DNA of 64,000 nt from Amia ocellicauda. Its lineage: Eukaryota; Chordata; Actinopteri; Amiiformes; Amiidae. The notes under the pieces are model-generated. The model was not told the origin of the DNA and ran no database searches. It was given only the letters and a program-made list of their open reading frames with translations. Location of the stretch: contig NC_089863.1 of the NCBI RefSeq assembly GCF_036373705.1, forward strand, positions 1,984,944 through 2,048,943, written 5' to 3'. The translations under genes were made by a program, and so were the position numbers. Shown one piece after another: positions 4,752 to 64,000 of this stretch. How positions within the stretch are numbered: position 1 is the stretch's first letter; each line of letters begins with the position of its first letter.

Positions 4752-4756
<5 letters not shown>

Positions 4757-4782
4757 GAGCAGATGGTCCTCCTCCCTTGGTG
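4752..4782 (+). CDS. gimap: GIMAP gene 1, exon 1 (start codon exon)
   Basis: The ATG follows a (GA)n run and reads MASRWSSSLG plus one base, then the donor G|GTGAGT at 4783. The phase (1) fits the acceptor at 10012, where G|GG completes a Gly codon. The same exon occurs at 29687 and 46722, with only Ala2/Gly2 changed, at the head of the other two genes. The Kozak context (G at -3 and +4) is favourable. Intron 1 is 5.2 kb and full of repeats. Confidence 0.75.
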
Positions 4783-5714
4783 GTGAGTTGCCTGTTGTGT
4801 CTGACACAGTTATTTGTATAGATGCGCAGATCCGATAATCCGTATCAATATCGGTCCGATACAGGACAGAAATATGGGCTCAAATTACCGCCCTAAGTAA
4901 CGAATTCAAAATAAAATATATTGTAACCGAGAAAAATAAAGTTGAGAAAAAATGGATGTTGAGATCAAAAACAAAACAATCGAAAGCAGAAGATCTAGAA
5001 TTGTAAACAAAAACGATATGAAAAGCAAAAAAAAAACTTGAAAGCAAATAATTTTAAATCGAGACCAAAGCTCGCACTGATGGAGTCCATTTCACACACA
5101 GGATGTGATCTCTGCTTTTGATTTCTCTGGATTTGATTTTAGTTTCGTTTACAGCCCGGTTTTGTCATGAGGGCGGGGTTTAGAGGGAGGCGTGGATCCT
5201 GGGTCTCCATTGGTCCACTAGGTTTGAGTGACGGTTCTTCCTCACCCAATCAGTGAGCAGGGTGGGATGGTTTGTAGTCTTTAAAAGTGTATTTCACTGC
5301 CTAGAACCCAGTGTCCAAGGAGCATGCGCAGTTCACCCTGCACTGTAGCCCACACGTCAGTCCCCGAGTAAAAGAATCATGTAAAATAAGACATATTTCT
5401 TATAGAAGAATCTGCCCTCATGATGAAGAGAGGAAACTCAGTCGCATTAGAGGGCTCTGTAAAAGACAGGCAAGTGGCATGATTGTTGTAGCAGTTGTTT
5501 CAGGTGAAGCAGCTAAATCTTCAAGTGAAAACTTAAATGTAAGACTTAGGACTAACACTGGAGATGCTATTTATAATGTTAAGTTATTTGAGTCACATTC
5601 TACATTGAGAAGTATTTTATTTTACTGGAAATGCTTTTATTTTTAGATATATATTGAAGTTTGAGTTCTTTATATTGTCATCTTTTAATCCAGTTATTTC
5701 ACTAGAATTATATA

Positions 5715-6612
5715 CACACCGATCAGCCATAACATTATGACCACCTGCCTAATATCGTGTAGGTCCCCCTTTTGCCACCAAAACAGCCCTGACCCGTCGA
5801 GGAATGGACTCCACTAGACCTCTGAAGCTGTGCTGTGGTATCTGGCACCAAGACGTTAGCAGCAGATCCTTTAAGTCCTGTAAGTTGAGAGGTGGGGCCT
5901 CCATGGATCGGACTTGTTTGTCCAGCACATCCCACAGATGCTCGATTGGATTGAGATCTGGGGAATTTGGAGGCCAAGTCAACACCTTGAACTCGTGATT
6001 CATCAGACCAGGCCACCTTCTTCCATTGCTCCGTGGTCCAGTTCTGATGCTCACGTGCCATTGTAGGCGTTTTCGGCAGTGGACAGGGGTCAGCATGGGC
6101 ACCCTGACTGGTCTGCGGCTACGCAGCCCCATACGCAACAAACTGCGACACACTGTGTGTTCTGACACCTTTCTATCAGAACCAGCATTCACTTTTTCAG
6201 CAATTTGAGCTACAGTAGCTCGTCTGTTGGATCGGACCACACGGGCCAGCCTTCGCTCCCCACGTGCATCAATGAGCCTTGGCCGCCCATGACCCTGTCG
6301 CCGGTTCACCGCTTTTCCTTCCTTGGACACTTTTGATAGGTACTGATCACTGCAGACCGGGAACACCCCACAAGAGCTGCAGGTTTGGAGATGCTCTGAC
6401 CCAGTCGTCTAGCATCACAATCTGGCTCTTGTCAAAGTCGCTCAGATCCTTACGCTGCCCATTTTTCCTGCTTCTAACACATCAACTTTGAGGTCAAAAT
6501 GTTCACTTGCTGCCTAATATATCCCACCCACTGACAGGTGCCATGATAACGAGATTATCAGTGTCATTCACTTCACCTGTCAGTGCTCATAATGATATGG
6601 CTGATCAGTGTA
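5715..6612 (-). mobile_element. Tc1/mariner element, internally deleted transposase (copy 1)
   Basis: Ends CACCGATCAGCCATAACATT (left) and the inverted CTGATCAGTG-TA (right) are terminal inverted repeats next to TA. The minus-strand product shows paired helix-turn-helix parts (GRPRLIDARGERRLARVV, then RRSLLRMGLRSRRP-type residues), KVAWSDESR with the first catalytic Asp, then jumps to WPPNSPDLNPIEHLWD. The segment normally holding the second Asp is absent, and the two parts are in different frames. The same junction occurs in the copy at 15091, so this is a non-autonomous subfamily. Confidence 0.85.
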
Positions 6613-7302
6613 TATTTGTTATATAGCCCAAATGCTGCCATTTTATTTTGTACAAAGTTGTACTTTCAGTGATATTTCAGGATTCATAATTTTTTTAATT
6701 TAAAACCGTTACTAAATAAAAGGAAGCAGCATTACTGCATAAGTCACGCTGTTGTGGGCTTTGTATTTTTTCCTTTAGGGAAATACAGAATTTGTTTCAC
6801 AGTTTGAGCATGACGATTTTTAGATGGCTATCGTAAGCAAAGTGCATCCATACCAATGGCATATTAACAGCTTAGTATTTGAGACCAAAAAAAGATCAGA
6901 TCGTATCGGTATCGGCAGATAGTCAAGGTTGACGTATCGGAAAAGAAAAAGTGGTATCGAGCCAACCCTACACTCTAAAAAAACATACACCGTCTCTACT
7001 TAAAAAAGGCAACTATTTGCATGGATCTTTGTAAGTAATTTCAGCTCTAAATTCTACAAACCTATTACTGTCAGACAAAAACTACAAAACTAAGTTCAAC
7101 CAACATGGCTTATTCATGTTCATACTCATAGGAATATTAAGCTGATCCAACTAGCAGTGTTTTGTCAGTTCTACTCAATATCTTATGCATATTGTTGACT
7201 TAAACATATTAAGAATTAATTGCTCAATTATATGAAGTTAAGAAAAACAAAAATAAAGACTTATTTATTGGTAAGCGTTGTACACAAACAATTGTATGAT
7301 AA

Positions 7303-7790: not shown

Positions 7791-7847
<57 letters not shown>

Positions 7848-7959
7848 AGGTATATCAACACAAATATACTTACAAAAACAGTGAATAAATGAACAATGAC
7901 CTCAAATAATCCCATCGAATGTGAGAAAGGTGGCTCAGGAGGGCAGTTTGTGTTTGAGA

Positions 7960-10011: not shown

Positions 10012-11553
10012 GGGGGAGACAGACTGCTTCCCCTGAGACACAGCGTCTCTCAGAGCTGAGGATTGTGCTGCTGGGGTGGAGAGGGACTGGGAAGAGTTCA
10101 TCAGGAAACACCATCCTGGGCAGAGAGGCGTTTAACACTGAGAGAGAGACTGAGCAGAGTGAGAAGAGCCAGGGTGACGTGGCCGGGAGGCAGGTCACTG
10201 TGGTCGACACACCAGGCTGGAGGTGGACTGATTCTGTACAGGAGAGTCCAGAGTGTGTCAAACAGGAGATTGTGCGCAGTGTGTCTCTGTGTCCCCCGGG
10301 ACCCCACGCTCTCCTCCTGCTCATTCCTGTGTGGAGTTACTCATTCACAGAGAGAGAGAGGAGATCAGCGCAGGAACACCTGGAGCTCCTCAGTGAGAGA
10401 GTCTGGAGACACACTATAGTGCTGTTCACTGGGGGGGACAGACTGGGAGACACAACCATTGAGCAGCACATTGAGAGACACAAGGAGCTCCAGCGGCTGG
10501 TGGAGAAATGTGGGAACAGGTATCATGTTCTCAACAACAGCAACAGGGGCGACGGCACTCAGGTCACAGAGCTGCTGGACAAGATAGACGAGATGCTGGC
10601 AGGACACAGGGAGAGATTCTTCACCAGGCAGAAATACACAGAGACCCACCAGCAGATGGAAGAACTGATTCAACTAAAGGCAAAGGAGATGAAACAGATG
10701 GATGAGGAGAGGGAGAGAGAGATAGCAGAGCTGACACAGCAATTTGAAAAGAGAGAGAGAGAGAGAGAAGAGGAGCAAAGGAAGGCAGAGGAGAGAAGGA
10801 GAGAGGTTGAAGAGCAGTTGAAAAAGAGCGATGAAGAGATGGAAAGAGAGAGGGAGGAGGTAAAACAGAGGGAGGAGGAGAGGGAGAGAGAAAGAGAGAG
10901 GGAAATCAGAGAGAAAGAGGAAGAGAGGCAGAGAGCAATAGATCAGCTGAAAAAGGATTTTGAGGAGAGAGAGAGAAAGAGGCAGAGGGAGATACAAGAG
11001 AGTGAGGAAGGAAGAGAGAAAGAAATGGAAGAAAAGGTGAAACAGAAAGATGAGGAGAGGAAGAGAGAGATGGAAGACCTGAAACAGAGGCATAAGCAGA
11101 GAGAGGAAGAGAGAGAGAGGGAGGTTCAAGAGAAACTAAAAAAGATGGATGAGGAGAGAGAGAATGAGATAGAGGAGATTAAAATGGGCTATGGAGAGAA
11201 AGAGAGAGAAATGGAAAAAAAGCTGAAAGAGAGGGATGAACAAAGAGAGAGAAAGATAGCAGAGCTGACACAGAGATTAGGGGAGAGAGAAAGAGAGATG
11301 GATCAGATCAGAAAGGAGTGTGAGGTGAAGGAGAGAGAGAGGGAAGAGGAGCTGAAGGAGAAGTATAGAGAGAGGGAGAGAGAGAGAGAGGAGGAGCTGA
11401 AACAGAGGATGGAGGAGGAGTGGAGCAGGAGAGAAGAGGAGCTGAAGGAGAAGATGAGAAAGACACTGAAGGAAGAGGAGCTGGAGAAAGAGACAGAGGA
11501 ATCCACACGACCTGTCAAGAGGAGGAGCAGCCTGGAGTTCATCCCTCCCACCA
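10012..11553 (+). CDS. gimap: GIMAP gene 1, exon 2: AIG1 GTPase domain plus long coiled coil
   Basis: Acceptor TTTCTCTCTGACAG, donor CCA|GTGAGT at 11554, both phase 1; exon residues 11-524. The AIG1 (GIMAP/toc34-like) domain spans about 26-225: P-loop GWRGTGKS (32-39) then SSGNTILG, switch II DTPGW (76-80), guanine-specificity TGGD (150-153), the GIMAP conserved box LQRLVEKCGNRYH and LNN (184-186). Residues about 226-510 are a charged coiled coil of EREREE/LKQRDEE-type heptads. The exon ends KRRSSLEFIPPT. The frame would meet a stop 12 bases past the donor, so splicing is needed to continue. Family role: GTP-dependent membrane-associated scaffold in immune cells. There is no C-terminal membrane helix. 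Confidence 0.85.
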
Positions 11554-11567: not shown

Positions 11568-12740
11568 TGCTGTATCACTGACTCTGATCTCACTGGCTCT
11601 CCTCTCAGTCTGTATCACTGACTCTGATCTCACTGGCTCTCCTCTCAGTCTGTATCACTGACTCTGATCTCACTGGCTCTCCTCTCAGTCTGTATCACTG
11701 ACTCTCTGATCTCACTGGCTCTCCTCTCAGTCTGTATCACTGACTCTGATCTCACTGACTCTCCTCTCAGTCTGTATCACTGACTCTCTGATCTCACTGG
11801 CTCTCCTCTCAGTCTGTATCACTGACTCTGATCTCACTGGCTCTCCTCTCAGTCTGTATCACTGACTCTCTGATCTCACTGGCTCTCCTCTCAGTCTGTA
11901 TCACTGACTCTCTGATCTCACTGGCTCTCCTCTCAGTCTGTATCACTGACTCTGATCTCACTGACTCTCCTCTCAGTCTGTATCACTGACTCTGATCTCA
12001 CTGGCTCTCCTCTCAGTCTGTATCACTGACTCTGATCTCACTGGCTCTCCTCTCAGTCTGTATCACTGACTCTCTGATCTCACTGGCTCTCCTCTCAGTC
12101 TATATCACTGACTCTGATCTCACTGGCTCTCCTCTCAGTCTGTATCACTGACTCTGATCTCACTGGCTCTCCTCTCAGTCTGTATCACTGACTCTCTGAT
12201 CTCACTGGCTCTCCTCTCAGTCTGTATCACTGACTCTGATCTCACTGGCTCTCCTCTCAGTCTATATCACTGACTCTGATCTCACTGGCTCTCCTCTCAG
12301 TCTGTATCACTGACTCTCTGATCTCACTGGCTCTCCTCTCAGTCTGTATCACTGACTCTGATCTCACTGGCTCTCCTCTCAGTCTGTATCACTGACTCTG
12401 ATCTCACTGGCTCTCCTCTCAGTCTGTATCACTGACTCTGATCTCACTGGCTCTCCTCTCAGTCTGTATCACTGACTCTGATCTCACTGGCTCTCCTCTC
12501 AGTCTGTATCACTGACTCTGATCTCACTGGCTCTCCTCTCAGTCTGTATCACTGACTCTCTGATCTCACTGGCTCTCCTCTCAGTCTGTATCACTGACTC
12601 TCTGATCTCACTGGCTCTCCTCTCAGTCTGTATCACTGACTCTGATCTTACTGGCTCTCCTCTCAGTCTGTATCACTGACTCTGATCTCACTGGCTCTCC
12701 TCTCAGTCTGTATCACTGACTCTCTGATCTCACTGGCTCT
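11568..12740 (+). repeat. 40-42-bp minisatellite in GIMAP gene 1 intron 2, about 29 units
   Basis: The unit is TGTATCACTGACTCTGATCT followed by CACTGGCTCTCCTCTCAGTC (40 bp); a 42-bp form has CTCTCTGATC. Each unit carries a branch-point-like CACTGAC, a pyrimidine-rich stretch and a TCTCAG acceptor look-alike. It starts 14 bases after the exon 2 donor and ends before the true acceptor at 12925. A shorter homologous array is at 59710-60600. Confidence 0.95.
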
Positions 12741-12925: not shown

Positions 12926-13632
12926 TGAGTGGAGGTGCCGCTCCAGAGAGAAGCCCAGGAGAGACTCCCAGTCCAGACGCCCCAGCGCCTCCCAGTCCCC
13001 CTGAGCTGAGGCTGGTGCTGCTGGGGAGGACTGGGGCTGGGAAGAGCGCGGCAGGAAACACCATCCTGGGCCGAGAGGAGTTTCCCTCTGAAGCCAGCAG
13101 CTCTGCAGTGACACAGGAGAGCGCCAAGAGAAGAGGACGCGTGGCTGGGAGACGGGTGTCTGTGGTGGACACACCAGACTGGTTCCACACGCCTCTCTCT
13201 CAGGGGGACGTGAGTCGGGACGTGGGGCTCTGTATCAACCTGTCTGCCCCGGGACCCCACGCTTTCCTCCTGGTGACCCCGCTGGGCCGATCCACAGGGG
13301 AGGAGAGGAGGATGCTGGAGAGGGTGCGGGAGATCTTCGGGGAGGGGGCTGCGGGGCGCACCGTGCTCCTCTTCACTCACACCGACCAGCTGAACGGCAA
13401 GAGCGTCCAGGAGTTTGTGGAGACGGGCGGCGAGGAGCTCCGGTGGCTGGTGGAGAAGTGCGGGAATAGGTACCACGCTCTGGACAACAAGAACAGGGTC
13501 GACGGCACTCAGGTCACACAGCTCCTGGCCAAAATCCAGGAGGTGGTGGCAGCAAACAATGGCAGCCATTACAGCAGCCAGATGTACCAGGAGGCAGAGT
13601 CCCGGATCAGACAGAGGAAGAGCAGATCCTGA
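12926..13632 (+). CDS. gimap: GIMAP gene 1, exon 3: second AIG1 domain, frameshifted after the domain
   Basis: Acceptor GTTGTGTTGCAG; A|TG across the splice gives a Met, then SGGAAPERSP. Second AIG1 domain: P-loop GRTGAGKS, AGNTILGREEF, switch II DTPDW (Asp where many GTPases have Gly), the GIMAP-typical LSAPGPHAFLLVTPLGRST, FTHTDQLNG, LVEKCGNRYHALDN and NNGSHY. Compared with gene 3, one A is missing near 13617-13619 (AGGAAGAGC versus AGGAAAGAGC). This shifts the frame and gives a stop at 13630-13632. Loss of one base from an A run could be real or a consensus error. The coil that should follow lies at 13633-14105 in another frame. Confidence 0.7.
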
Positions 13633-14105
13633 GGGACAGAGAGGAGTGGAAACAGAGGGAAGAGGAAGGGCTGAGGGAGAAGCAGCAGAAGGAAGTGCAC
13701 AACTGCCTCCGCAGGATGGAGGGGGAGCTCCAGCAGCGAGAGGAGAAGATCAGAGCGCTGGAGGAGCGGATAGCAGAGCTGGAGGAGAGGCTGAGGGAGG
13801 AGAGGAATGAGGAGAGGAGGAGAGCGCTGGAGGAGGAGCTGAGGAGAGAGCGAGAGCAGAGAGAGAGGCTGGAGAGAGAGAGGGAGGTGCTGACTGAGGA
13901 GCGGGAGAGGGAGAGGAAAGAGATGGAGGAGAGACACCAGAGGGAGATGGAGGAGCTCAGGCGGCGCTATGAGGGACAGGCCAGAGACGAGGCAGAGAGA
14001 CACAGAGAGGCCCTGCAGGAGGTCAGGGAGTCGACAGCACAGTGCACTGCAGCAGGACAGGAGCACAGGAGCAGACGGGGCAGCAGGAGGTTCTTCTGTT
14101 TGTAG
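13633..14105 (+). pseudogene. GIMAP gene 1, out-of-frame coiled-coil remainder of exon 3, private C-terminus
   Basis: In the +1-shifted frame the sequence continues the gene 3 coil (LRRMEGELQQREEKIRALEE, then ELRREREQRERLEREREVL) to RRRYEGQARDEAE. There it departs from gene 3, which enters a third AIG1 domain, and ends RRGSRRFFCL with a stop at 14103-14105. If the one-base deletion is an error, this is coding and gene 1 is a two-domain protein of roughly 920 residues ending here. Confidence 0.55.
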
Positions 14106-15958: not shown

Positions 15959-16002
15959 TCAGGGCTACATAACCATAAGAACATAAGAAAGCACTACAGC
16001 AC

Positions 16003-16530
16003 ACTGACACACAGCTCCACTACACCCCTGACTGTGTCACTACAGCACACTGACACACAGCTCCACTACACCCCTGACTGTGTCACTACAGCACACTGAC
16101 ACACAGCTCCACTACACCCCTGACTGTGTCACTACAGCACACTGACACACAGCTCCACTACACCCCTGACTGTGTCACTACAGCACACTGACACACAGCT
16201 CCACTACACCCCTGACTGTGTCAATATAGCACACTGACACACAGCTCCACTACACCCCTGACTGTGTCACTATCACACTGACACACAGCTCCACTACACC
16301 CCTGACTGTGTCACTACAGCACACTGACACACAGCTCCACTACACCCCTGACTGTGTCACTACAGCACACTGACACACAGCTCCACTACACCCCTGACTG
16401 TGTCACTACAGAACACTGACACACAGCTCCACTACACCCCTGACTGTGTCACTACAGCACACTGACACACAGCTCCACTACACCCCTGACTGTGTCACTA
16501 CAGCACACTGACACACAGCTCAACTAGACC
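16003..16530 (+). repeat. 46-bp minisatellite, short array upstream of the orphan terminal exon
   Basis: The unit is CACTACAGCACACTGACACA followed by CAGCTCCACTACACCCCTGA and CTGTGT (46 bp), about 11.5 copies. It is the same repeat as in the last intron of genes 2 and 3. It is followed by (CT)n at 16537-16579, which acts as the polypyrimidine tract of the next exon. Confidence 0.95.
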
Positions 16531-16534
16531 ACTG

Positions 16535-16582
<48 letters not shown>

Positions 16583-16583
16583 G

Positions 16584-16621
16584 TGTCTGGCTCAGAGGAC
16601 CCTGCCCTGGAGGAGCCCTGA
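16584..16621 (+). CDS. gimap: GIMAP terminal coding exon (gene 1 locus)
   Basis: After (CT)n and CTGCAG, the exon begins TG, completing a phase-1 A|TG Met codon, then SGSEDPALEEP and TGA. It matches the gene 2 terminal exon (SGSEDPALEEL). It may be joined to gene 1 exon 2 directly (frame kept if exon 3 is skipped), or may be an orphan left after exon 3 lost its third domain and donor. Its 3'UTR follows. Confidence 0.6.
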
Positions 16622-29686: not shown

Positions 29687-29690
<4 letters not shown>

Positions 29691-29717
29691 GGAGCAGATG
29701 GTCCTCCTCCCTTGGTG
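29687..29717 (+). CDS. gimap: GIMAP gene 2, exon 1
   Basis: Reads MGSRWSSSLG plus one base, donor G|GTGAGT at 29718, phase 1, matching the acceptor at 33579. Position 2 is Gly instead of Ala in the other copies. Confidence 0.75.
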
Positions 29718-33578: not shown

Positions 33579-34349
33579 GGGGGAGACAGACTGCTTCCCC
33601 TGAGACACAGCGTCTCTCAGAGCTGAGGATTGTGCTGCTGGGGTGGAGAGGGACTGGGAAGAGTTCATCAGGAAACACCATCCTGGGCAGAGAGGCGTTT
33701 AACACTGAGAGAGAGACTGAGCAGAGTGAGAAGAGCCAGGGTGACGTGGCCGGGAGGCAGGTCACTGTGGTCGACACACCAGGCTGGAGGTGGACTGATT
33801 CTGTACAGGAGAGTCCAGAGTGTGTCAAACAGGAGATTGTGCGCAGTGTGTCTCTGTGTCCCCCGGGACCCCACGCTCTCCTCCTGGTCATTCCTGTGTG
33901 GAGTTACTCATTCACAGAGAGAGAGAGGAGATCAGCGCAGGAACACCTGGAGCTCCTCAGTGAGAGAGTCAGGAGACACACTATAGTGCTGTTCACTGGG
34001 GGGGACGAACTGGGAGACACAACCATTGAGCAGCACATTGAGAGACACAAGGGGCTCCAGTGGCTGGTGGAGAAATGTGGGAACAGGTATCATGTTCTCA
34101 ACAACAGGGACAGGAGCGACGGCACTCAGGTCACAGAGCTGCTGGACGAGATAGACGAGATGCTGGCAGGACTGAGTGTCTTTCAGTACAGGAGAGAGAC
34201 AGGAGGGCTTCAGGAGAAGTTAGAGAAGAGGAGTGAGAAGAGAGGAGGAGAGAAACAGAGGGATGATGAAGAAGAAGAGGAGACAGAAAGTGAGGGAGCC
34301 ACACTGCCAGCAAGAAGGAGAAACAGCTATGATCTGATACCACCCCTCA
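33579..34349 (+). CDS. gimap: GIMAP gene 2, exon 2: single AIG1 domain (domain 1/domain 3 hybrid)
   Basis: Acceptor CTCTCTGACAG, donor CTCA|GTAAGT, both phase 1; residues 11-268. P-loop GWRGTGKS (32-39), DTPGW (76-80), TGGDELGD (150-157), LVEKCGNRYHVLNN. After the domain comes AGLSVFQYRRETGGLQEKLE, then an acidic stretch and ARRRNSYDLIPPL. With the terminal exon at 41220 the protein is about 279 residues, the usual size of a single-domain GIMAP, with an open frame throughout. The first part matches domain 1 of genes 1 and 3; the part from about 34005 on matches domain 3 of gene 3. Confidence 0.85.
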
Positions 34350-34394: not shown

Positions 34395-37300
34395 CCACAG
34401 CACTGAGGCCTCTTACTGACTGTGTCACTACAGCACACTGACACACAGCTCCACTACACCCCTGACTTTGTCACTACAGCACACTGACACACAGCTCCAC
34501 TACACCCCTGACTGTGTCACTACATCACACTGACACACAGCTACACTACACCCCAGACTGTGTCACTACAGCACACTGACACACAGCTCTACTACACCCC
34601 TGACTGTGTCACTACAGCACACTGACACACAGCTCTACTACACCCCTGACTGTGTCACTACAGCACACTGACATTCAGCTCCACTACACCCCTGACTGTG
34701 TCACAACAGCACACTGACACACAGCTCCACTACACCCCTGACTGTGTCACTACAGCACACTGACACACAGCTCCACTGCACCCCTGACTGTGTCACTACA
34801 GCACACTGACACACAGCTCCACTACACCCCTGACTGTGTCACTACAGCACACTGACACACAGCTCTACTGCACCCCTGACTGTGTCACTACAGCACACTG
34901 ACACACAGCTCCACTACACCCCTGACTGTGTCACTACAACACACTGACACACAGCTCCACTGCACCCCTGACTGTGTCACTACAGCACACTGACACACAG
35001 CTCCACTACACCCCTGACTGTGTCACTACAGTACACTGACACACAGCTCCACTACACCCCTGACTGTGTCACTACAGCACACTGACACACAGCTCCACTA
35101 CACCCCTGACTGTGTCACTACAGCACACTGACACACAGCTCCACTACACCCCTGACTGTGTCACTACAGCACACTGACACACAGCTCCACTACACCCCTG
35201 ACTGTGTCACTACAGCACACTGACACACAGCTCCACTACACCCCTGACTGTGTCACTACAGCACACTGACACACAGCTCCACTACACCCCTGACTGTGTC
35301 ACTACAGCACACTGACACACAGCTCCACTACACCCCTGACTGTGTCACTACATCACACTGACACACAGCTCCACTACACCCCTGACTGTGTCACTATCAC
35401 ACTGACACACAGCTCCACTACACCCCTGACTGTGTCACTACAGCACACTGACACACAGCCCCACTACACCCCTGACTGTGTCACTACAGAACACTGACAC
35501 ACAGCTCCACTACACCCCTGACTGTGTCACTATCACACTGACACACAGCTCCACTACACCCCTGACTGTGTCACTATAGCACACTGACACACAGCCCCAC
35601 TACACCCCTGAATGTGTCACTACAGAACACTGACACACAGCTCCACTACACCCCTGACTGTGTCACTATCACACTGACACACAGCTCCACTACACCCCTG
35701 ACTGTGTCACTACAGCACACTGACACACAGCTCCACTACACCCCTGACTGTGTCACTACATCACACTGACACACAGCTCCACTACACCCCTGACTGTGTC
35801 ACTACAGCACACTGACACACAGCCCCACTACACCCCTGACTGTGTCACTACAACACACTGACACACAGCTCCACTACACCCCTGACTGTGTCACTACAGC
35901 ACACTGACACACAGCTCCACTACACCCCTGACTGTGTCACTACAGCACACTGACACACAGCTCCACTACACCACTGACTGTGTCACTACAGCACACTGAC
36001 ACACAGCCCCACTACACCCCTGACTGTGTCACTACAGAACACTGACACACAGCTCCACTACACCCCTGACTGTGTCACTATCACACTGATACACAGCTCC
36101 ACTACACCCCTGACTGTGTCACTACAGCACACTGACACACAGCTCCACTACACCCCTGACTGTGTCACTACATCACACTGACACACAGCTCCACTACACC
36201 CCTGACTGTGTCACTACAGCACACTGACACACAGCCCCACTACACCCCTGACTGTGTCACTATAGCACACTGACACACAGCTCCACTACACCCCTCACTG
36301 TGTCAATATAGCACACTGACACACAGCTCCACTACACCCCTGACTGTGTCACTACATCACACTGACACACAGCTCCACTACACCCCTGACTGTGTCACTA
36401 CAGCACACTGACACACAGCTCCACTACACCCCTGACTGTGTCACTACATCACACTGACACACAGCTCCACTACACCCCTGACTGTGTCACTATCACACTG
36501 ACACACAGCTCCACTACACCCCTGACTGTGTCACTACAGCACACTGACACACAGCCCCACTACACCCCTGACTGTGTCACTACAGAACACTGACACACAG
36601 CTCCACTACACCCCTGACTGTGTCACTATCACACTGACACACAGCTCCACTACACCCCTGACTGTGTCACTATAGCACACTGACACACAGCCCCACTACA
36701 CCCCTGAATGTGTCACTACAGAACACTGACACACAGCTCCACTACACCCCTGACTGTGTCACTATCACACTGACACACAGCTCCACTACACCCCTGACTG
36801 TGTCACTACAGCACACTGACACACAGCTCCACTACACCCCTGACTGTGTCACTACATCACACTGACACACAGCTCCACTACACCCCTGACTGTGTCACTA
36901 CAGCACACTGACACACAGCCCCACTACACCCCTGACTGTGTCACTACAACACACTGACACACAGCTCCACTACACCCCTGACTGTGTCACTACAGCACAC
37001 TGACACACAGCTCCACTACACCCCTGACTGTGTCACTACAGCACACTGACACACAGCTCCACTACACCACTGACTGTGTCACTACAGCACACTGACACAC
37101 AGCCCCACTACACCCCTGACTGTGTCACTACAGAACACTGACACACAGCTCCACTACACCCCTGACTGTGTCACTATCACACTGATACACAGCTCCACTA
37201 CACCCCTGACTGTGTCACTACAGCACACTGACACACAGCTCCACTACACCCCTGACTGTGTCACTACATCACACTGACACACAGCTCCACTACACCCCTG

Positions 37301-40300
37301 ACTGTGTCACTACAGCACACTGACACACAGCCCCACTACACCCCTGACTGTGTCACTATAGCACACTGACACACAGCTCCACTACACCCCTCACTGTGTC
37401 AATATAGCACACTGACACACAGCTCCACTACACCCCTGACTGTGTCACTACATCACACTGACACACAGCTCCACTACACCCCTGACTGTGTCACTACAGC
37501 ACACTGACACACAGCCCCACTACACCCCTGACTGTGTCACTACAACACACTGACACACAGCTCCACTACACCCCTGACTGTGTCACTACAGCACACTGAC
37601 ACACAGCTCCACTACACCCCTGACTGTGTCACTACAGCACACTGACATTCAGCTCCACTACATCCCTGACTGTGTCACTACAGCACACTGACACACAGCT
37701 CTACTACACCCCTGACTGTGTCACTACAGCACACTGACACACAGCTCCACTACACCCCTGACTGTGTCACTACAGAACACTGACACACAGCTCCACTAAA
37801 CCCCAGACTGTGTCAATACAGCACACTGACATTCAGCTCCACTACACCCCTGACTGTCACTACAGCACACTGACATTCAGCTCCACTACACCCCTGACTG
37901 TGTCACAACAGCACACTGACACACAGCTCCACTACACCCCTGACTGTGTCACTACAGCACACTGACACACAGCTCCACTACACCCCTGACTGTGTCACTA
38001 CAGCACACTGACACACAGCTCCACTACATCCCTGACTGTGTCACTACAGCACACTGACACACAGCTCTACTGCACCCCTGACTGTGTCACTACAGCACAC
38101 TGACACACAGCTCCACTACACCCCTGACTGTGTCAATACAGCACACTGACACACAGCTCCACTACACCCCTGACTGTGTCACTACAGCACACTGACACAC
38201 AGCTCCACTACACCCCTGACTGTGTCACTACAGCACACTGACACACAGCCCCACTACACCCCTGACTGTGTCACTACATCACACTGACACACAGCTCCAC
38301 TACACCCCTGACTGTGTCACTACAGCACACTGACACACAGCTCCACTACACCCCTGACTGTGTCACTACATCACACTGACACACAGCTCCACTACACCCC
38401 TGACTGTGTCACTATAGCACACTGACACACAGCCCCACTACACCCCTGACTGTGTCACTATCACACTGACACACAGCTCCACTACACCCCTGACTGTGTC
38501 ACTACAGCACACTGACACACAGCTCCACTACACCCCTGACTGTGTCACTACATCACACTGACACACAGCCCCACTACACCCCTGACTGTGTCACTACAGC
38601 ACACTGACACACAGCTCCACTACACCCCAGACTGTGTCACTACAGCACACTGACACACAGCCCCACTACACCCCTGACTGTGTCACTACTGCACACTGAC
38701 ACACAGCTCCACTACACCCCTGACTGTGTCACTACAGCACACTGACACACAGCTCCACTACACCCCTGACTGTGTCACTACATCACACTGACACACAGCT
38801 CCACTACACCCCTGACTGTGTCACTACAACACACTGACACACAGCTCCACTACACCCCTGACTGTGTCACTACAGCACACTGACACACAGCCCCACTACA
38901 CCCCTGACTGTGTCATTACAGAACACTGACACACAGCTCCACTACACCCCTGACTGTGTCACTATCACACTGACACACAGCTCCACTACACCCCTGACTG
39001 TGTCACTACAGCACACTGACACACAGCTCCACTACACCCCTGACTGTGTCACTACATCACACTGACTCACAGCTCCACTACACCCCTGACTGTGTCACTA
39101 CAGCACACTGACACACAGCCCCACTACACCCCTGACTGTGTCACTATAGCATACTGACACACAGCTCCACTATACCCCTGACTGTGTCAATATAGCACAC
39201 TGACACACAGCTCCACTACACCCCTGACTGTGTCACTACATCACACTGACACACAGCTCCACTACACCCCTGACTGTGTCACTACAGCACACTGACACAC
39301 AGCCCCACTACACCCCTGACTGTGTCACTACAACACACTGACACACAGCTCCACTACACCCCTGACTGTGTCACTACAGCACACTGACACACAGCTCCAC
39401 TACACCCCTGACTGTGTCACTACATCACACTGACACACAGCTCCACTACACCCCTGACTGTGTCACTACAGCACACTGACACACAGCCCCACTACACCCC
39501 TGACTGTGTCACTACATCACACTGACACACAGCTCCACTACACCCCTGACTGTGTCACTACAGCACACTGACACACAGCCCCACTACACCCCTGACTGTG
39601 TCACTACAACACACTGACACACAGCTCCACTACACCCCTGACTGTGTCACTACAGCACACTGACACACAGCTCCACTACACCCCTGACTGTGTCACTACA
39701 GCACACTGACACACAGCTCCACTACACCCCTGACTGTGTCACTACAGCACACTGACACACAGCCCCACTACACCCCTGACTGTGTCACTACAGAACACTG
39801 ACACACAGCTCCACTACACCCCTGACTGTGTCACTATCACACTGACACACAGCTCCACTACACCCCTGACTGTGTCACTACAGCACACTGACACACAGCT
39901 CCACTACACCCTTGACTGTGTCACTACATCACACTGACACACAGCTCCACTACACCCCTGACTGTGTCACTACAGCACACTGACACACAGCCCCACTACA
40001 CCCCTGACTGTGTCACTATAGCACACTGACACACAGCTCCACTACACCCCTGACTGTGTCAATATAGCACACTGACACACAGCTCCACTACACCCCTGAC
40101 TGTGTCACTACATCACACTGACACACAGCTCCACTACACCCCTGACTGTGTCACTACAGCACACTGACACACAGCCCCACTACACCCCTGACTGTGTCAC
40201 TACAAGACACTGACACACAGCCCCACTACACCCCTGACTGTGTCACTACAGCACACTGACACACAGCTCCACTACACCCCTGACTGTGTCACTACAGCAC

Positions 40301-41155
40301 ACTGACACACAGCTCCACTGCACCCCTGACTGTGTCACTACAGCACACTGACACACAGCTCCACTACACCCCTGACTGTGTCACTACAGCACACTGACAC
40401 ACAGCTCCACTACACCCCTGACTGTGTCACTACAGCACACTGACACACAGCTCCACTACACCCCTGACTGTGTCACTACATCACACTGACACACAGCTCC
40501 ACTACACCCCTGACTGTGTCACTACAGCACACTGACACACAGCCCCACTACACCCCTGACTGTGTCACTATAGCACACTGACACACAGCTCCACTACACC
40601 CCTGACTGTGTCAATATAGCACACTGACACACAGCTCCACTACACCCCTGACTGTGTCACTACATCACACTGACACACAGCTCCACTACACCCCTGACTG
40701 TGTCACTACAGCACACTGACACACAGCCCCACTACACCCCTGACTGTGTCACTACAAGACACTGACACACAGCCCCACTACACCCCTGACTGTGTCACTA
40801 CAGCACACTGACACACAGCTCCACTACACCCCTGACTGTGTCACTACAGCACACTGACACACAGCTCCACTACACCCCTGACTGTGTCACTATAGCACAC
40901 TGACACACAGCTCCACTACACCCCTGACTGTGTCAATATAGCACACTGACACACAGCTCCACTACACCCCTGACTGTGTCACTACATCACACTGACACAC
41001 AGCTCCACTACACCCCTGACTGTGTCACTACAGCACACTGACACACAGCCCCACTACACCCCTGACTGTGTCACTACAGCACACTGACACACAGCTCCAC
41101 TACACCCCTGACTGTGTCACTACAGCACACTGACACACAGCTCCACTGCACCCCT
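34395..41155 (+). repeat. 46-bp minisatellite array, about 147 units, last intron of GIMAP gene 2
   Basis: Units as at 16003, with variants: tatcac short units, CAGCCCCAC, acagaacac, acatcac, tcaatatagc. Rare markers repeat exactly 1,096 bp apart: cccctgaatgtg at about 35606 and 36702, cccctcactgtg at 36291 and 37387, and ccactgactg at 35971 and 37067. This shows a higher-order duplication of about 24 units. (CT)n (41158-41200) follows and leads into the terminal exon. Confidence 0.97.
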
Positions 41156-41156
41156 G

Positions 41157-41214
<58 letters not shown>

Positions 41215-41219: not shown

Positions 41220-41257
41220 TGTCTGGCTCAGAGGACCCTGCCCTGGAGGAGCTCTGA
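41220..41257 (+). CDS. gimap: GIMAP gene 2, terminal coding exon
   Basis: (CT)n, TATCTCTGCAG acceptor, then TG completing Met, SGSEDPALEEL and TGA. Phase 1 matches the donor at 34350. The exon therefore adds only 12 residues after a 6.9-kb intron. Confidence 0.75.
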
Positions 41258-46721: not shown

Positions 46722-46752
46722 ATGGCGAGCAGATGGTCCTCCTCCCTTGGTG
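46722..46752 (+). CDS. gimap: GIMAP gene 3, exon 1
   Basis: MASRWSSSLG plus one base, donor G|GTGAGT at 46753, phase 1; identical to gene 1 exon 1. The next coding exon is 11 kb downstream at 57758. Confidence 0.75.
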
Positions 46753-55900: not shown

Positions 55901-57243
55901 ATCAAAGGAGAGATGAGCTTACCTTGAATGATGACTGTGTGATGTGGGGCCTCCGGATTATCTTACCGACAAAACAGAGATCCAAGGTACTGGAGGAGTT
56001 ACATATGGGCCATCTATGGGTGGTGAAAATGAAGGCGCTCGCCAGGAGTTTTGTATGGTGGCCAGGACTAGATCAAGATATCGAGCAGCTTGCCATGACA
56101 TGCTCTGGTTGCCAGCGAGTGCAGAACGAACCACAAACAGCACCACTTCATCCATGGGAGTGGCTTGCGACACCTTGGCAGCGTATCCATGTTGATTTTG
56201 CTGGTCCATTCCTCGGAACAACATTTCTAGTGGTAGTCGATGCATGTTCCAAATGGCCTGAAGTGTTCACCATGAGCTCCACCACCTCAGCTCACACTAT
56301 TGAAGTGTTGAGGGGCTTGTTCGCTAGAACTGGAGAGCCAGAACAGTTAGTGAGTGACAATGGTCCCCAGTTCACAGCTGCTGACTTCCAAGAATTTCTC
56401 AGAAGGAACGGGATCCGGCACATCACATCCGCACCTTGGCACCCAGCCACAAATGGCCTCGCTGAGAGGCTTGTGCAGTGCCTTAAACAAGCCCTCCGAG
56501 CCATGACAAATGAGAACATTACTCTCCATCAAAAGCTGACAAACTTCCTATTTGCTTACCGTAATGCCACACATGCAACCACAAACCAAACCCCAGTTTG
56601 AACCCCTGTTCCTAGGACGTCTTGGCAAGGAGCTATCGAGGAGACCACAAATGTATTCCTGTCAAGGTTAAGAAGAAAAGTGGCCCTTTGTCCTATGTGG
56701 TTGAAGTGACACCTGGTGACACCTGGTGTTATTTGGCGACGTCACGTTGACCAGTTGAAACGGACTGGAGTGGTCCTGGATGAGGAGCTACCCATTCTGC
56801 CTGTTGCACCTGCAGCTCCACAGGAGACCCCTTCACATCAGACAGTTGATGCACAGGATCAACCTGCCTCCGTGTCCACATCAACTCCAGAGGTCAGCAC
56901 CTCTGTAGTCAGGAGAAGCACCATGTGAAGAAAAGCATTATCCCACACGAACCCGGAATCCACCACAGAGACTGATTCAAAGTTAATAAAAACATGTACT
57001 CTAGGGAACCATACTTTATTTTCCTTTTTAGGAAGTATTATTATTTCTCATCTTAGAAGGGAGGAGTGTTGGATATTATCTACAAATCATATTGATCTGT
57101 AAAACGACTAGTAATGTCTAATGCCTATTTGGCTGTTTGATTAGTGATGCCTTTACTTTTGGTATGCCCATGAAAACAAGAGATATTTAATTGCACTCCC
57201 GACTCCGATATTATTTATTGTGTGGTGAATTAAAGACACAACA
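52988..57243 (+). mobile_element. Nearly full-length Ty3/Gypsy retrotransposon with both LTRs, decayed
   Basis: 3' LTR 57067-57243 (TGTTGGATATTATC…ACACAACA); 5' LTR about 52988-53181 matches it with substitutions and small insertions. A PBS-like TGGCGACGAGG follows the 5' LTR, and a purine tract (agaagggagga) precedes the 3' LTR. Gag ends with a CCHC knuckle CRKCKKTGHIQRACLS (about 53800). Pol in order: protease region about 54000-54290, RT (VPVAKKDGTVRLCGDFK, YLDDIIVTG) 54430-55220, RNase H (ACDASPYGIGA, DREALSLVWG, TDHQPL) 55300-55560, integrase with zinc region and three acidic residues (HVDFAGP, SDNGPQF, NGLAERL) 55950-56500. Stops at 54655, 54853, 55225 and 56599 and gag shifts make it inactive. 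Confidence 0.9.
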
Positions 57244-57757: not shown

Positions 57758-59695
57758 GGGGGAGACAGACTGCTTCCCCTGAGACACAGCGTCTCTCAGA
57801 GCTGAGGATTGTGCTGCTGGGGTGGAGAGGGACTGGGAAGAGTTCATCAGGAAACACCATCCTGGGCAGAGAGGCGTTTCAGACTGGAGATCTGACTAAG
57901 ACAGTGACTGAGCAGAGTGAGAAGAGCCAGGGTGACATGGCCGGGAGGCAGGTCACTGTGGTCGACACACCAGGCTGGAGGTGGAGTGATTCTGTACAGG
58001 AGAGTCCAGAGTGTGTCAAACAGGAGATTGTGCGCAGTGTGTCTCTGTGTCCCCCGGGACCCCACGCTCTCCTCCTGGTCAATCCTGTGTGGAGTTACTC
58101 ATTCACAGAGAGAGAGAGGAGATCAGCGCAGGAACACCTGGAGCTCCTCAGTGAGACAGTCTGGAGACACACTATAGTGCTGTTCACTGGGGGGGACAGA
58201 CTGGGAGACACAACCATTGAGCAGCACATTGAGAGACACAAGGAGCTCCAGTGGCTGGTGGAGAAATGTGGGAACAGGTATCATGTTCTCAACAACAGCA
58301 ACAGGGGCGACGGCACTCAGGTCACAGAGCTGCTGGACAAGATAGACGAGATGCTGGCAGGACACGGGGAGAGATTCTTCACCAGGCAGAAATACACAGA
58401 GACCCACCAGCAGATGGAAGAACTGATTCAACTAAAGGCAAAGGAGATGAAACAGATGGATGAGGAGAGGGAGAGAGAGATAGCAGAGCTGACACAGCAA
58501 TTTGAAAAGAGAGAGAGAGAGAGAGAAGAGGAGCAAAGGAAGGCAGAGGAGGGAAGGAGAGAGATTGAAGAGCAGTTGAAAAAGAAGGATGACGAGATGG
58601 AAAGAGAGAGGGAGGAGGTAAAACAGAGGGAGGAGGAGAGGGAGAGAGAAAGAGAGAGGGAACTCAGAGAGAATGAGAAAGAGAGGCAGAGAGCAATAGA
58701 TCAGCTAAAAAGGGAGTTTGAGGAGAGAGAGAGGAAGATGCAGTGGGAGATAAAAGAGAGGGAGGAACAGAAAGAGAGAGACATTAAAGAATTGAAACAG
58801 AGAGATGAGGAGAGGAAGAGAGAGATGGCAGAGCTGACACAAAGATTTGGGGAGAGAGAGAGACAGATGGATAAAGAGAGAGAGGAGATGAGAGAGAGGG
58901 AGATCAGAGAGAAAGAGGAGATGAAGACAGAGATAGATGAGTTAAATAAGGAGTATAAGGTAAGGGAGAGAGAGATTGAAAACCTGAAACAGAAGGACAA
59001 AGAGAGGGAGAGAGAGATAGCAGATCTGACACAACAATTTGAAAAGAGAGAGAGAGAAGAGGAGCAAAGGAAGGCACAGGAGAGAAGGAGAGAGATTGAA
59101 GAGCAGTTGAAAAAGAGGGATGACGAGATGGAAAGGGAGAGGGAGGAGGTAAAACAGAGGGAGGAGGAGAGGGAGAGAGAAAGAGAGAGGGAACTCAGAG
59201 AGAATGAGAAAGAGAGGCAGAGAGCAATAGATCTGCTAAAAAGGGAGTTTGAGGAGAGAGAGAGGAAGATTCAGTGGGAGATAAAAGAGAGGGAGGAACA
59301 GAAAGAGAGAGACATTAAAGAATTGAAACAGAGAGATGAGGAGAGGAAGAGAGAGATGGAAGACCTGAAACAGAGGTATGAGCAGAGAGAGGAAGAGAGA
59401 GAGAGAGAGATTATAAAGAAAGATGAAATGAGAGAGAGAGAGATAGCAGAGCTGACACAAAGATTAGGGGAGAGAGAAAGAGAGATGGATCAGATCAGAA
59501 AGGAGTGTAAGGTGAAGGAGAGAGAGAGAGAGGAGGAGCTGAAACAGAGGATGGAGGAGGAGTGGAGCAGGAGAGAAGAGGAGCTGAAGGAGAAGATGAG
59601 AAAGACACTGAAGGAAGAGGAGCTGGAGAAAGAGACAGAGGAATCCACACGACCTGTCAAGAGGAGGAGCAGCCTGGAGTTCAACCCTCCCAAGA
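57758..59695 (+). CDS. gimap: GIMAP gene 3, exon 2: AIG1 domain 1 plus extended coiled coil
   Basis: Acceptor CTCTCTGACAG, donor AAGA|GTGAGT at 59696, both phase 1; residues 11-656. AIG1 domain with GWRGTGKS, DTPGW, TGGDRLGD and LVEKCGNRYHVLNN. It differs from gene 1 by FQTGDLTKTVTEQS in the switch I area, where gene 1 has lost bases. The coil is about 130 residues longer than in gene 1 because a segment with QQFEKRERE, EEQRKAEE and IDQLKREFEERERK recurs 531 bp downstream in frame. The exon ends KRRSSLEFNPPK. A stop lies just past the donor. Confidence 0.85.
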
Positions 59696-59709: not shown

Positions 59710-60600
59710 TGCTGTATCACTGACTCTGATCTCACTGGCTCTCCTCTCAGTCTGTATCACTGACTCTGATCTCACTGGCTCTCCTCTCAGTCTGTATCAC
59801 TGACTCTGATCTCACTGGCTCTCCTCTCAGTCTGTATCACTGACTCTGATCTCACTGGCTCTCTTGTCAGTCTGTATCACTGACTCTCTGATCTCACTGG
59901 CTCTCCTCTCAGTCTCTATCACTGACTCTGATCTCACTGGCTCTCCTCTCAGTCTGTATCACTGACTCTGATCTCACTGGCTCTCCTCTCAGTCTGTATC
60001 ACTGACTCTCTGATCTCACTGACTCTCCTCTCAGTCTGTATCACTGACTCTCTGATCTCACTGGCTCTCCTCTCAGTCTGTATCACTGACTCTGATCTCA
60101 CTGGCTCTCCTCTCAGTCTGTATCACTGACTCTCTGATCTCACTGGCTCTCCTCTCAGTTTGTATCTCTGACTCTCTGATCTCACTGGCTTTCCTCTCAG
60201 TCTGTATCACTGACTCTCTGATCTCACTGGCTCTCCTCTCAGTCTGTATCACTGACTCTGATCTCACTGGCTCTCCTCTCAGTCTGTATCACTGACTCTC
60301 TGATCTCACTGGCTCTCCTCTCAGTCTGTATCACTGACTCTGATCTCACTGGCTCTCCTCTCAGTCTGTATCACTGACTCTGATCTCACTGGCTCTCCTC
60401 TCAGTCTGTATCACTGACTCTCTGATCTCACTGGCTCTCCTCTCAGTCTGTATCACTGACTCTCTGATCTCACTGGCTCTCCTCTCAGTCTGTATCACTG
60501 ACTCTGATCTTACTGGCTCTCCTCTCAGTCTGTATCACTGACTCTGATCTCACTGGCTCTCCTCTCAGTCTGTATCACTGACTCTCTGATCTCACTGGCT
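59710..60600 (+). repeat. 40-42-bp minisatellite, GIMAP gene 3 intron 2, about 22 units
   Basis: Same unit as 11568-12740 (TATCACTGACTCTGATCTCA then CTGGCTCTCCTCTCAGTC). Individual variant units (tttcctctc, tcttgtcag, agtttgtatctctg) are private to this copy, so the arrays have evolved separately. Confidence 0.95.
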
Positions 60601-60787
60601 CTTCTAATTTGATGCGTCATTATTGTGCTGTTTGTTGTGCTGATATTTCCTCCCAACTACAGACAGTTTCCCAGTCTGGCTCATTGCCGCTCTACTGCAG
60701 TGACACACTCAGCCCATTCTCAGCAGTGTGTCTGTGCCGTGTTGTCGTCTGCTCTGACTGTGTGTTGTGTGTTGTGTTGTGTTGCAG

Positions 60788-62616
60788 TGAGTAGAGGTGC
60801 CGCTCCAGAGAGAAGCCCAGTAGAGACTCCCAGTCCAGACGCCCCAGTGCCTCCCAGTCCCCCTGAGCTGAGGCTGGTGCTGCTGGGGAGGACTGGGGCT
60901 GGGAAGAGCGCGGCAGGAAACACCATCCTGGGCCGAGAGGAGTTTCCCTCTGATGCCAGCAGCTCTGCAGTGACACAGGAGAGCGCCAAGAGAAGAGGAC
61001 GCGTGGCTGGGAGACGGGTGGCTGTGGTGGACACACCAGACTGGTTCCACACGCCTCTCTCTCAGGGGGACGTGAGACGGGACGTGGGGCTCTGTATCAA
61101 CCTGTCTGCCCCGGGACCCCACGCTTTCCTCCTGGTGACCCCGCTGGGCCGATCCACAGGGGAGGAGAGGAGGACGCTGGAGAGGGAGCGGGAGATCTTC
61201 GGGAAGGGGGCTGCGGGGCGCACCGTGCTCCTCTTCACTCACGCCGACCAGCTGAACGGCAAGAGCGTCCAGGAGTTTGTGGAGACGGGCGGCGAGGAGC
61301 TCCAGTGGCTGGTGGAGAAGTGCGGGAACAGGTACCACGCTCTGGACAACATGAACAGGGGCGACGGCACTCAGGTCACACAGCTCCTGGCCAAAATCCA
61401 GGAGGTGGTGGCAGCAAACAATGGCAGCCACTACACCAACCAGATGTACCAGGAGGCAGAGTCCCGGATCAGACAGAGGAAAGAGCAGATCCTGAGGGAC
61501 AGAGAGGAGAGGAAACAGAGGGAAGAGGAAGGGCTGAGAGAGAAGCAGCAGAAGGAAGTGCACAACTGCCTCCGCAGGATGGAGGGGGAGCTCCAGCAGC
61601 GAGAGGAGAAGATCAGAGCGCTGGAGAAGCGGATAGCAGAGCTGGAGGAGAGGCTGAGGGAGGAGAGGGATGAGGAGAGGAGGAGAGCGCTGGAGGAGGA
61701 GCTGAGGAGAGAGCGAGAGCAGAAAAAGAGGCTGGAGAGAGAGATGGAGGCGCTGAGGGAGGAGTGGGAGAGGGAGAGGAAAGAGATGGAGGAGAGACAC
61801 CAGAGGGAGATGGAGGAGCTCAGGCGGCGCTATGAGGGACAGGCCAGAGACGAGGCAGAGATGCAGCTGGACGCTCTGGACACGGCCGCAGTGGCTCTGG
61901 CGGCGGCTGGAGGGGCAGCAGGGCCCGTGTCTGAGCTGAGGCTGGTGCTGCTGGGCGGAGAGAGGACAGGGAAGAGCAGCTCAGGAAACACCATCCTGGG
62001 CCGAGAGCAGTTCCACCCTGAGAGAAGGATCGAACAGAGCGAGAGCAGCCAGGGGGCCGCAGCCGGGAGGAGGGTCACTGTGGTGGACACACCGGGCTGG
62101 GACTGGCACTCTGCCCGCTTCACGCCAGAGCGGGTCAAACAGGAGATTGTGCGCAGCGTGTCTCTGTGTCCCCCGGGACCCCACGCTGTCCTCCTGGTCC
62201 TTCCTGTGGTCTCAAAGGGGCTCATAAACAGGAGATCAGTGCAGGAACACCTGGAGCTCCTCAGTGAGACAGTCTGGAGACACACTATAGTGCTGTTCAC
62301 TGGGGGGGACGAACTGGGAGACACAACCATTGAGCAGCACATTGAGAGACACAAGGAGCTCCAGCGGCTGGTGGAGAAATGTGGGAACAGGTATCATGTT
62401 CTCAACAACAGCAACAGGGGCGACGGCACTCAGGTCACAGAGCTGCTGGACAAGATAGACGAGATGCTGGCAGGACTGAGTGTCTTTCAGTACAGGAAAG
62501 AGACAGGAGGGCTGCAGGAGAAGTTAGAGAAGAGGAGTGAGGAGAGAGGAGGAGCGAAACAGAGGGATGAAGAAGAAGAAGAGGAGACAGAAAGTGGGAG
62601 CCACACTGCCAGCTAG
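60788..62616 (+). CDS. gimap: GIMAP gene 3, exon 3: AIG1 domains 2 and 3
   Basis: Acceptor TGTTGTGTTGCAG; A|TG Met then SRGAAPERSP. Residues 657-1265 of the spliced product. Domain 2: GRTGAGKS (about 690-697), DTPDW, LSAPGPHAFLLV, FTHADQLNG, LDN. A coil follows (REEKIRALEKRIAELEERLR, then RRRYEGQARDEAE). Domain 3 without an intervening intron: GGERTGKS (about 1046-1053), DTPGW, TGGDELGD, LNN, then AGLSVFQYRKETGG and an acidic tail. Against gene 2 the tail lacks two bases near 62594 (gtgggagcc versus gtgagggagcc) and so ends early at SGSHTAS, 35 bases short of the conserved donor at 62652. In mammals GIMAP8 also has three AIG1 domains. Confidence 0.85.
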
Positions 62617-62724
62617 AAGGAGAAACAGCCATGATCTGATACCACCCTTCAGTAAGTCAGTGTGGTTGACAGCAGACAGACCACACACCTTTCACTCCAC
62701 AGCACTGAGGCCTCTTACTGACTG
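62617..62724 (+). other. Former end of exon 3 with conserved donor, then start of last intron
   Basis: In the shifted frame the sequence still reads ARRRNSHDLIPPF up to TTCA|GTAAGT (62652), as in gene 2. This shows the early stop is recent or a consensus error. Confidence 0.6.
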
Positions 62725-63956
62725 TGTCACTACAGCACACTGACACACAGCTCCACTACACCCCTGACTTTGTCACTACAGCACACTGACACACAGCTCC
62801 ACTACACCCCTGACTGTGTCACTACAGCACACTGACACACAGCTCCACTACACCCCTGACTGTGTCACTACAGCACACTGACACACAGCTCCACTACACC
62901 CCTGACTTTGTCACTACAGCACACTGACACACAGCTCCACTACACCCCTGACTGTGTCACTACAGCACACTGACACACAGCTCCACTACACCCCTGACTG
63001 TGTCACTACAGCACACTGACACACAGCTCCACTACACCCCTGACTGTGTCACTACAGCACACTGACACACAGCTCCACTACACCCCTGACTGTGTCACTA
63101 CAGCACACTGACACACAGCTCCACTACACCCCTGACTGTGTCACTACAGCACAGACACACAGCTCCACTACACCCCTGACTGTGTCACTACAGAACACTG
63201 ACACACAGCTCCACTACACCCCTGACTGTGTCACTACAGAACACTGACACACAGCCCCACTACACCCCTGACTGTGTCACTATCACACTGACACACAGCT
63301 CCACTACACCCCTGACTTTGTCACTACAGCACACTGACACACAGCTCCACTACACCCCTGACTTTGTCACTACAGCACACTGACACACAGCTCCACTACA
63401 CCCCTGACTGTGTCACTACAGCACACTGACACACAGCTCCACTACACCCCTGACTGTGTCACTACAGCACACTGACACACAGCTCCACTACACCCCTGAC
63501 TGTGTCACTACAGCACAGACACACAGCTCCACTACACCCCTGACTGTGTCACTACAGCACACTGACACACAGCTCTACTACACCCCTGACTGTGTCACTA
63601 CAGCACACTGACACACAGCTCCACTACACCCCTGACTGTGTCACTACAGCACACTGACACACAGCTCCACTACACCCCTGACTGTGTCACTACAGCACAC
63701 TGACACACAGCTCCAATAGACCCCTGACTGTGTCACTACAGCACACTGACACACAGCTCCACTACACCCCTGACTGTGTCACTACAGCACACTGACACAC
63801 AGCTCCACTACACCCCTGACTGTGTCACTACAGCACACTGACACACAGCTCCAATACACCCCTGACTGTGTCACTACAGCACACTGACACACAGCTCCAC
63901 TACACCCCTGACTGTGTCACTACAGCACACTGACACACAGCTCCACTAGACCACTG

Positions 63957-63957
<1 letters not shown>
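62725..63957 (+). repeat. 46-bp minisatellite in GIMAP gene 3 last intron, about 27 units
   Basis: Same unit as 34395-41155, including cccctgactttg variants near the start of the array as in gene 2. (CT)n from 63959 runs to the window edge and corresponds to the tract just before the terminal exon of the other copies, so that exon should lie immediately beyond. Confidence 0.95.

Positions 63958-64000
<43 letters not shown>

Follow-up and report, generated by a model that had tools for sequence, protein, structure and literature searches.

The window analysed here is the whole stretch of 64,000 nucleotides (nt) covering positions 1,984,944 to 2,048,943 of the forward strand of contig NC_089863.1 (assembly GCF_036373705.1) of Amia ocellicauda, a holostean that we take to be the fish commonly called the eyespot bowfin. 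Three AIG1/GIMAP genes lie in tandem on its + strand (Table 1), an arrangement proposed by an earlier sequence-only reading and borne out by the Pfam AIG1 profile (PF04548): five of the six given open reading frames (ORFs) matched it with E-values of 1.6e-40 to 2.7e-97 and scores of 139–325 bits (cut-off 27), and the sixth, with no AIG1 match, is a coil-only frame. In fold and sequence the window domains are nearest to solved GIMAPs. The splice model gives a chain with three AIG1 domains (D1, D2 and D3) for gene 3, two for gene 1 and one for gene 2. The spliced gene 2 product is identical over all 279 amino acids (aa) to the annotated protein P0178, 'GTPase IMAP family member 4 [Amia ocellicauda]'. 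No exact full-length match to the exons of genes 1 and 3 was found among the proteins fetched, and the best matches of the gene 3 exon were Amia GIMAP8/GIMAP4 proteins. The copies evidently arose by segmental duplication; one aligned stretch of 4,019 nt, for instance, is 98.8% identical (masked blastn).

Table 1. Exons of the three GIMAP genes, the gene 2 switch interval and intronic minisatellites in the A. ocellicauda window (coordinates are positions in the window)
Feature	Position	Strand	Description
Gene 1 exon 1	4752..4782	+	MASRWSSSLG, 31 nt, phase 1 at end
Gene 1 exon 2	10012..11553	+	D1 GTPase domain and 302-aa charged stretch, 1542 nt, phase 1-1
Gene 1 exon 3	12926..14105	+	D2 GTPase domain, frameshift, without D3
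Gene 1 terminal exon sequence	16584..16621	+	A|TG, MSGSEDPALEEP stop
Gene 2 exon 1	29687..29717	+	31 nt, phase 1 at end
Gene 2 exon 2	33579..34349	+	Single AIG1 domain with D1 front and D3 rear plus tail, 771 nt, phase 1-1
Gene 2 D1-like to D3-like switch interval	33967..34172	+	Defined by informative sites
Gene 2 terminal exon	41220..41257	+	A|TG, MSGSEDPALEEL stop
Gene 3 exon 1	46722..46752	+	31 nt, phase 1 at end
Gene 3 exon 2	57758..59695	+	D1 domain and 430-aa charged stretch, 1938 nt, phase 1-1
Gene 3 exon 3	60788..62651	+	D2, helix and D3 in a single exon; two AIG1 stretches
Minisatellite A (40 base pairs, bp), gene 1 D1-D2 intron	11570..12740	+	28 copies of 3'-splice-site-like CTCTCCTCTCAG|T
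Minisatellite A (40 bp), gene 3	59712..60602	+	21 splice-site-like units
Minisatellite B (46 bp), before gene 1 terminal exon sequence	15992..16536	+	
Minisatellite B (46 bp), gene 2 intron	34416..41158	+	About 147 units
Minisatellite B (46 bp), gene 3	62718..63958	+	

Two kinds of GTPase domain are combined in these chains. The alignment of D2 with human GIMAP2 runs on through the LGR segment, and D2 keeps PLGRS at the place where the window D1 has PVWSYS and D3 has PVVSKG; within the window the presumed arginine finger is kept by D2 only. The passages of PMC8201404 used here state that GIMAP2 alone does not hydrolyse GTP, that GIMAP7 promotes its hydrolysis and that dimers control GIMAP activity. 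Among 125 rows (120 proteins and five window pieces) the commonest pattern was three Arg-less domains (60 rows), and both kinds of domain were mixed in 26, including bowfin, gar and sturgeon and also teleost sequences. Arg103 and the GIMAP dimer interface are said to have been described with the 2013 structure of GIMAP7.

In the sets compared, the D1/D3-type domains proved to be hypervariable in the loops around the nucleotide pocket over a constant framework, and the bowfin D2-type domains did not. Loops at the nucleotide pocket usually rank with the best-conserved regions of the GTPase fold. We compared the P-loop, switch I, switch II and the finger loop, 67 positions together, in protein sets drawn from the best 120 matches of each search, which are not full repertoires. 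Mean entropy over 21 D1/D3-type domains of A. ocellicauda, with one partial domain left out, was 0.98 in the loops and 0.29 at the remaining positions, a contrast reached by 1 of 178 circular shifts; the eight D2-type domains, chosen by a G4-loop pattern that biases loop identity upward, gave 0.12 against 0.18 (164 of 178 shifts). The loop excess of D1-like domains was found in all 13 fish sets, of which one mixes two Acipenser species and the two from Amia species share relatives, with ratios of 1.66–3.99 and 0–5 of 178 shifts. Arg-type sets, chosen by a finger-loop pattern that likewise biases loop identity upward, were large enough in four of the 13 and gave ratios of 0.52–1.0, the others holding fewer than four such domains.

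The difference persisted when 643 domains were classed by framework only (552 D1-like, 56 D2-like, 35 neither). The canonical P-loops carried 238 different tetrapeptides in 501 D1-like domains against 11 in 50 D2-like ones, and rarefaction of the D1-like P-loops to 50 still left a mean of 42.1 (minimum 34). At a framework identity of 0.8–0.9, P-loop identity was 0.67 for D1-like and 0.93 for D2-like pairs, and identity over the loops, taken without the finger loop in these framework-classed comparisons, was 0.67 and 0.85; the remaining three bins of framework identity point the same way, with pairs pooled across species and thus not independent. Of 15 domains tested for loop sharing (from the 21), 4 have one loop exactly as in one paralogue and a second loop as in a different paralogue, a pattern that fits shuffling, though without a chance control. 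None of the titles listed in literature searches on GIMAPs describes this pocket-loop variability. The variability of the D1/D3-type loops hints at diversified recognition or pairing surfaces.

Codon changes between genes 1 and 3 are suggestive of diversifying selection, although not proof of it. D1 differs by 12 nonsynonymous and 0 synonymous changes in 201 codons, D2 by 15 and 2 in 230, and the helix by 61 and 24 in 297. Between the two D1 domains 6 of 67 loop codons differ, together with a 4-codon indel, against 5 of 133 others, and between D1 of gene 1 and D3 of gene 3 the counts are 31 of 64 and 30 of 133. The loops might instead vary under relaxed constraint, D1 and D3 being decaying pseudo-GTPases that need only to fold, an explanation consistent with the missing arginine finger of the window D1 and D3 and with 51 of the 552 D1-like domains in which GxxxxGK[ST] is missing from the first 34 residues, some of them with altered spacing or lost residues. 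We regard this as somewhat unlikely, since 6 of the 56 D2-like domains also lack the pattern, so that the D1-like domains are no worse; moreover, the other 501 retain it, with all those 238 forms at the four x positions, the framework is near-constant, and the D1 changes between genes 1 and 3 are exclusively nonsynonymous.

By its informative sites, gene 2 is a D1/D3 chimera that switches parent within an exon. It matches D1 of gene 1 up to and including 33966, save at 33887, and is D3-like from 34007, with two D1-like exceptions (34194 and 34251) and three sites matching neither parent. The switch would narrow to 33967–34006 if the adjoining sites 34007–34008 were trusted; because these two belong to a single changed codon, with no further informative site before 34173, the wider interval of Table 1 is the safe one. 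The Pfam AIG1 match in gene 2 ends at about 34168, which places the switch in the rear or at the very end of the GTPase domain, inside the exon either way. Gene conversion and unequal crossing-over would both fit as its source. Two observations on annotated proteins, at the protein level, bear on this: P0187 has a D1 domain joined to a D2-type tail, and the D2 proteins P0004, P0007, P0008 and P0010 diverge past one common point. As a separate observation, P0008, P0010 and P0187 carry an Ala/Gly-rich hydrophobic tail, possibly membrane-inserting, after the D2-type coil, where gene 3 has D3.

The sequence-only reading had traced the whole family to exons bounded by phase-1 splice sites. Such bounds hold for the ends of all three first exons and for both ends of the three D1-type exons, and they fail as sequenced for exon 3 of genes 1 and 3, each with its own stop. 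Gene 3 exon 3 is not 1-1 because, by comparison with gene 2, it lacks 2 nt near its end and so runs into a stop at 62616. Gene 1 exon 3 lacks 1 nt by comparison with gene 3 and stops at 13632, and the coil past this frameshift runs in another frame to its own stop at 14105. A phase-1 terminal joint is demonstrated in gene 2 alone. The gene 1 terminal exon sequence is apparently orphaned, because no tail copy or clear relic was found between 14105 and 16584 with the Gly-rich tail of P0008 as query (donors were not scanned there), and for gene 3 a terminal exon would be expected past the window end. The rebuilding of a Met codon as A|TG is confirmed at acceptors 12926 and 60788 (D2) and 16584 and 41220 (terminal): the D2 exons start with TG and the donor leaves the A, and the same holds where genes 1 and 2 have their terminal exon sequences.

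Phase alone is weak evidence for exchangeable modules, because the independent joint types number only three. The recurrence of the joint peptide is stronger evidence, though at the protein level. The pattern PPxM[SA] after 12 residues occurs in 21 of 120 related proteins (23 matches), among them gar, conger, smelt and cyprinid sequences seen as proteins and not as exons, and the joint peptide is also found in A. ocellicauda P0004, P0005, P0007 and P0010 (PPKMSGG, PPSMSGP and others). The exon joint is probably old, given this recurrence in gar, conger, smelt and cyprinids. The D1 exon and the D3-type exon end in sequences that seem related (KRRSSLEFIPP and RRRNSYDLIPP), and a tblastn query with a D3-type-like tail gave weak matches at 59644–59691 (E 0.008) and 11502–11549 (E 0.16), making an ancient in-frame exon duplication relating the two plausible, if weakly supported. 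A basic R-R-x-S stretch directly precedes the PPx joint at 11502–11553, 34290–34349 and 59644–59695, and in several fish GIMAPs too; it resembles a basophilic kinase site.

The phase-1 joints, the A|TG Met and the recurring joint peptide in fish, bowfin proteins included, are what would be expected if symmetric exons, skipped, duplicated or lost in frame, by themselves made the one-, two- and three-domain forms and many isoforms. Three observations speak against that account of domain number, which we consider unlikely: gene 2 changes parent inside an exon, D2 and D3 of gene 3 share one exon, and the D2 exon of gene 1 terminates in its own stop. The gene 2 mosaic shows that domain number can change here without exon symmetry. 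That the frameshifts and odd fusions are artefacts, due to errors in the reads or to wrongly assembled, almost identical copies, is quite unlikely. The 98.8% identity over 4 kb, the large minisatellites and the two small indels might speak for it, but the chimeric gene 2 is an intact ORF (its annotated match may come from the same assembly and is not independent) and D2-linker-D3 is annotated, at the protein level, in P0001 and, from another Amia species, in P0002.

The E/R/K coils of the earlier reading are real as charged helices, and their description as a long 'scaffold' is unproven. The two post-D1 stretches (Table 1) consist of 63–65% E+R+K and 18–19% hydrophobic residues, and their hydrophobic periods are 3.64 and 3.60, respectively (0 of 300 shuffles as strong), not the 3.5 of a heptad; three shorter post-D2 stretches peak at 3.66–3.72. 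On the combination of period and low hydrophobic content, the long stretches appear to resemble a single charged helix or a hendecad more closely than a heptad coil. AlphaFold predicted the D2-D3 linker as helices spanning residues 193–267 and 271–349, with a predicted local distance difference test score (pLDDT) of 78–93 at residues 211–330 and lower values at the ends; the predicted template modelling score (pTM) of 0.39 for D2-linker-D3 is too low to fix the placement of the domains. Charged stretches of at least 150 residues were found in 6 of 120 related proteins, five from Amia and one from a sturgeon, and gar stretches reach 101–108. The linker between D2 and D3 in P0001 and P0002 is similar, and existing annotations of other fish include GIMAPs with several domains, some of which also bear charged helices.

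Minisatellite A makes up most of the D1-D2 intron in genes 1 and 3. Minisatellite B likewise dominates the intron preceding the terminal exon, and varies in length between the gene copies from about 12 to about 147 units. Nearly every unit of A closes with the splice-site-like sequence. The pyrimidine tract at all 28 + 21 YAG sites of the A arrays is 75–81%, with a pyrimidine-rich AG at 81% in nearly all units, compared with 62.5% at the D2 acceptor; the B array of gene 2 has 254 YAG sites, of which 1 reaches 70%. We considered that minisatellite A might serve as a splicing device with candidate decoy acceptors. A 42-bp minisatellite of about 16.6 copies lies upstream of gene 1 at 2413–3105, and the sequences flanking genes 1 and 2 on their 3' side match positions 3703–4031 at 97–100% identity, which implies a further GIMAP gene end or a duplicated flank upstream. 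ORFs resembling, by eye, fragments of Tc1-type transposase or gypsy-type pol are present at 5749–6408, 15111–15845, 25642–27102 and 50281–50733 (- strand) and at 54040–56601 (+ strand); one Tc1-like copy is located between the gene 1 D2 exon and terminal exon sequence.

The explanation to which we give somewhat more credence than doubt is a GIMAP8-type array of phase-1 modules in recombining copies, in which D1 and D3 domains with hypervariable loops share a constant catalytic partner, D2. The modules would be a start exon, D1 with its helix, an Arg-bearing D2 with its helix (an exon that in gene 3 also includes D3) and a short terminal exon, joined at phase-1 introns. D2 is proposed to act as the common catalytic partner, such that its pairing with D1 or D3 would lead to hydrolysis, as GIMAP7 does for GIMAP2. 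The D1 and D3 loops would line the face at which GIMAPs are thought to dimerise, providing diversified surfaces for pairing or pathogen contact, and the long charged helices would hold these surfaces apart. More tentatively, it is possible that the D1-like GIMAP domains of ray-finned fish form a germline-diversified repertoire, with a fixed framework and pocket loops (the P-loop x residues, the switches and the finger loop) resembling complementarity-determining regions. Recombination would shuffle these loops between the tandem copies, and in bowfin a constant D2 with an Arg finger, carried on the same helical arm, would read them out. If true, hypervariable pocket loops with a mostly intact Walker A motif, in a large family of immune GTPases, would suggest that the loops encode partner pairing or touch pathogen factors directly, and loop diversity would offer a testable answer to why fish have so many GIMAPs.

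Several points weigh against the proposal of diversified loops served by a constant D2. We infer the role of the D1 and D3 loops as pairing or recognition surfaces from sequence, and the loops were defined by motif after the sequences had been viewed. In two gar sets and one A. calva set of Arg-type domains the loops vary about as much as the rest (ratio 0.87–1.0). The codon excess is not loop-specific, because D2 shows it too, and D1 of gene 1 and gene 2 differ at equal rates in loop and other codons (4 of 67 and 8 of 133). The frameshifts in genes 1 and 3 may mark pseudogenes or errors of assembly. The arginine-finger argument is incomplete, because the aligned residue is also Arg in one D1 of A. 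ocellicauda (P0007), which blurs the division into two kinds of domain, in other D1-like domains (P0009) and in human GIMAP2.

Several known systems share features with the array as we read it, a set of recombining GIMAP copies with a common D2. Mouse IRG proteins, some of them tandem GTPases that serve as decoys for Toxoplasma kinases, are polymorphic immune GTPases like the bowfin GIMAPs, but belong to a different GTPase family, and no pathogen partner is known for the bowfin proteins. The AIG/GIMAP genes of the mollusc Biomphalaria also form tandem arrays, with dual-domain genes and coiled coils, and most have one exon per AIG1 domain, whereas a single exon of bowfin gene 3 encodes two; hypervariability of the pocket loops is not among the features given for these arrays in the passages of PMC7053062 used here. 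Mammalian GIMAP8, described with three GTPase domains in PMC8201404, and the fish proteins named 'GTPase IMAP family member 8-like', as are most of the database matches listed, likewise hold several AIG1 domains per protein, to which the bowfin copies add long charged helices and a mixture of Arg-bearing D2 with Arg-less D1 and D3. In the human GIMAP7/GIMAP2 system, where one protein activates the other, the counterpart of bowfin D2 by alignment is GIMAP2, with the LGR segment kept; the bowfin genes, in contrast, bring both kinds of domain together in one chain, within which a comparable activation may take place.

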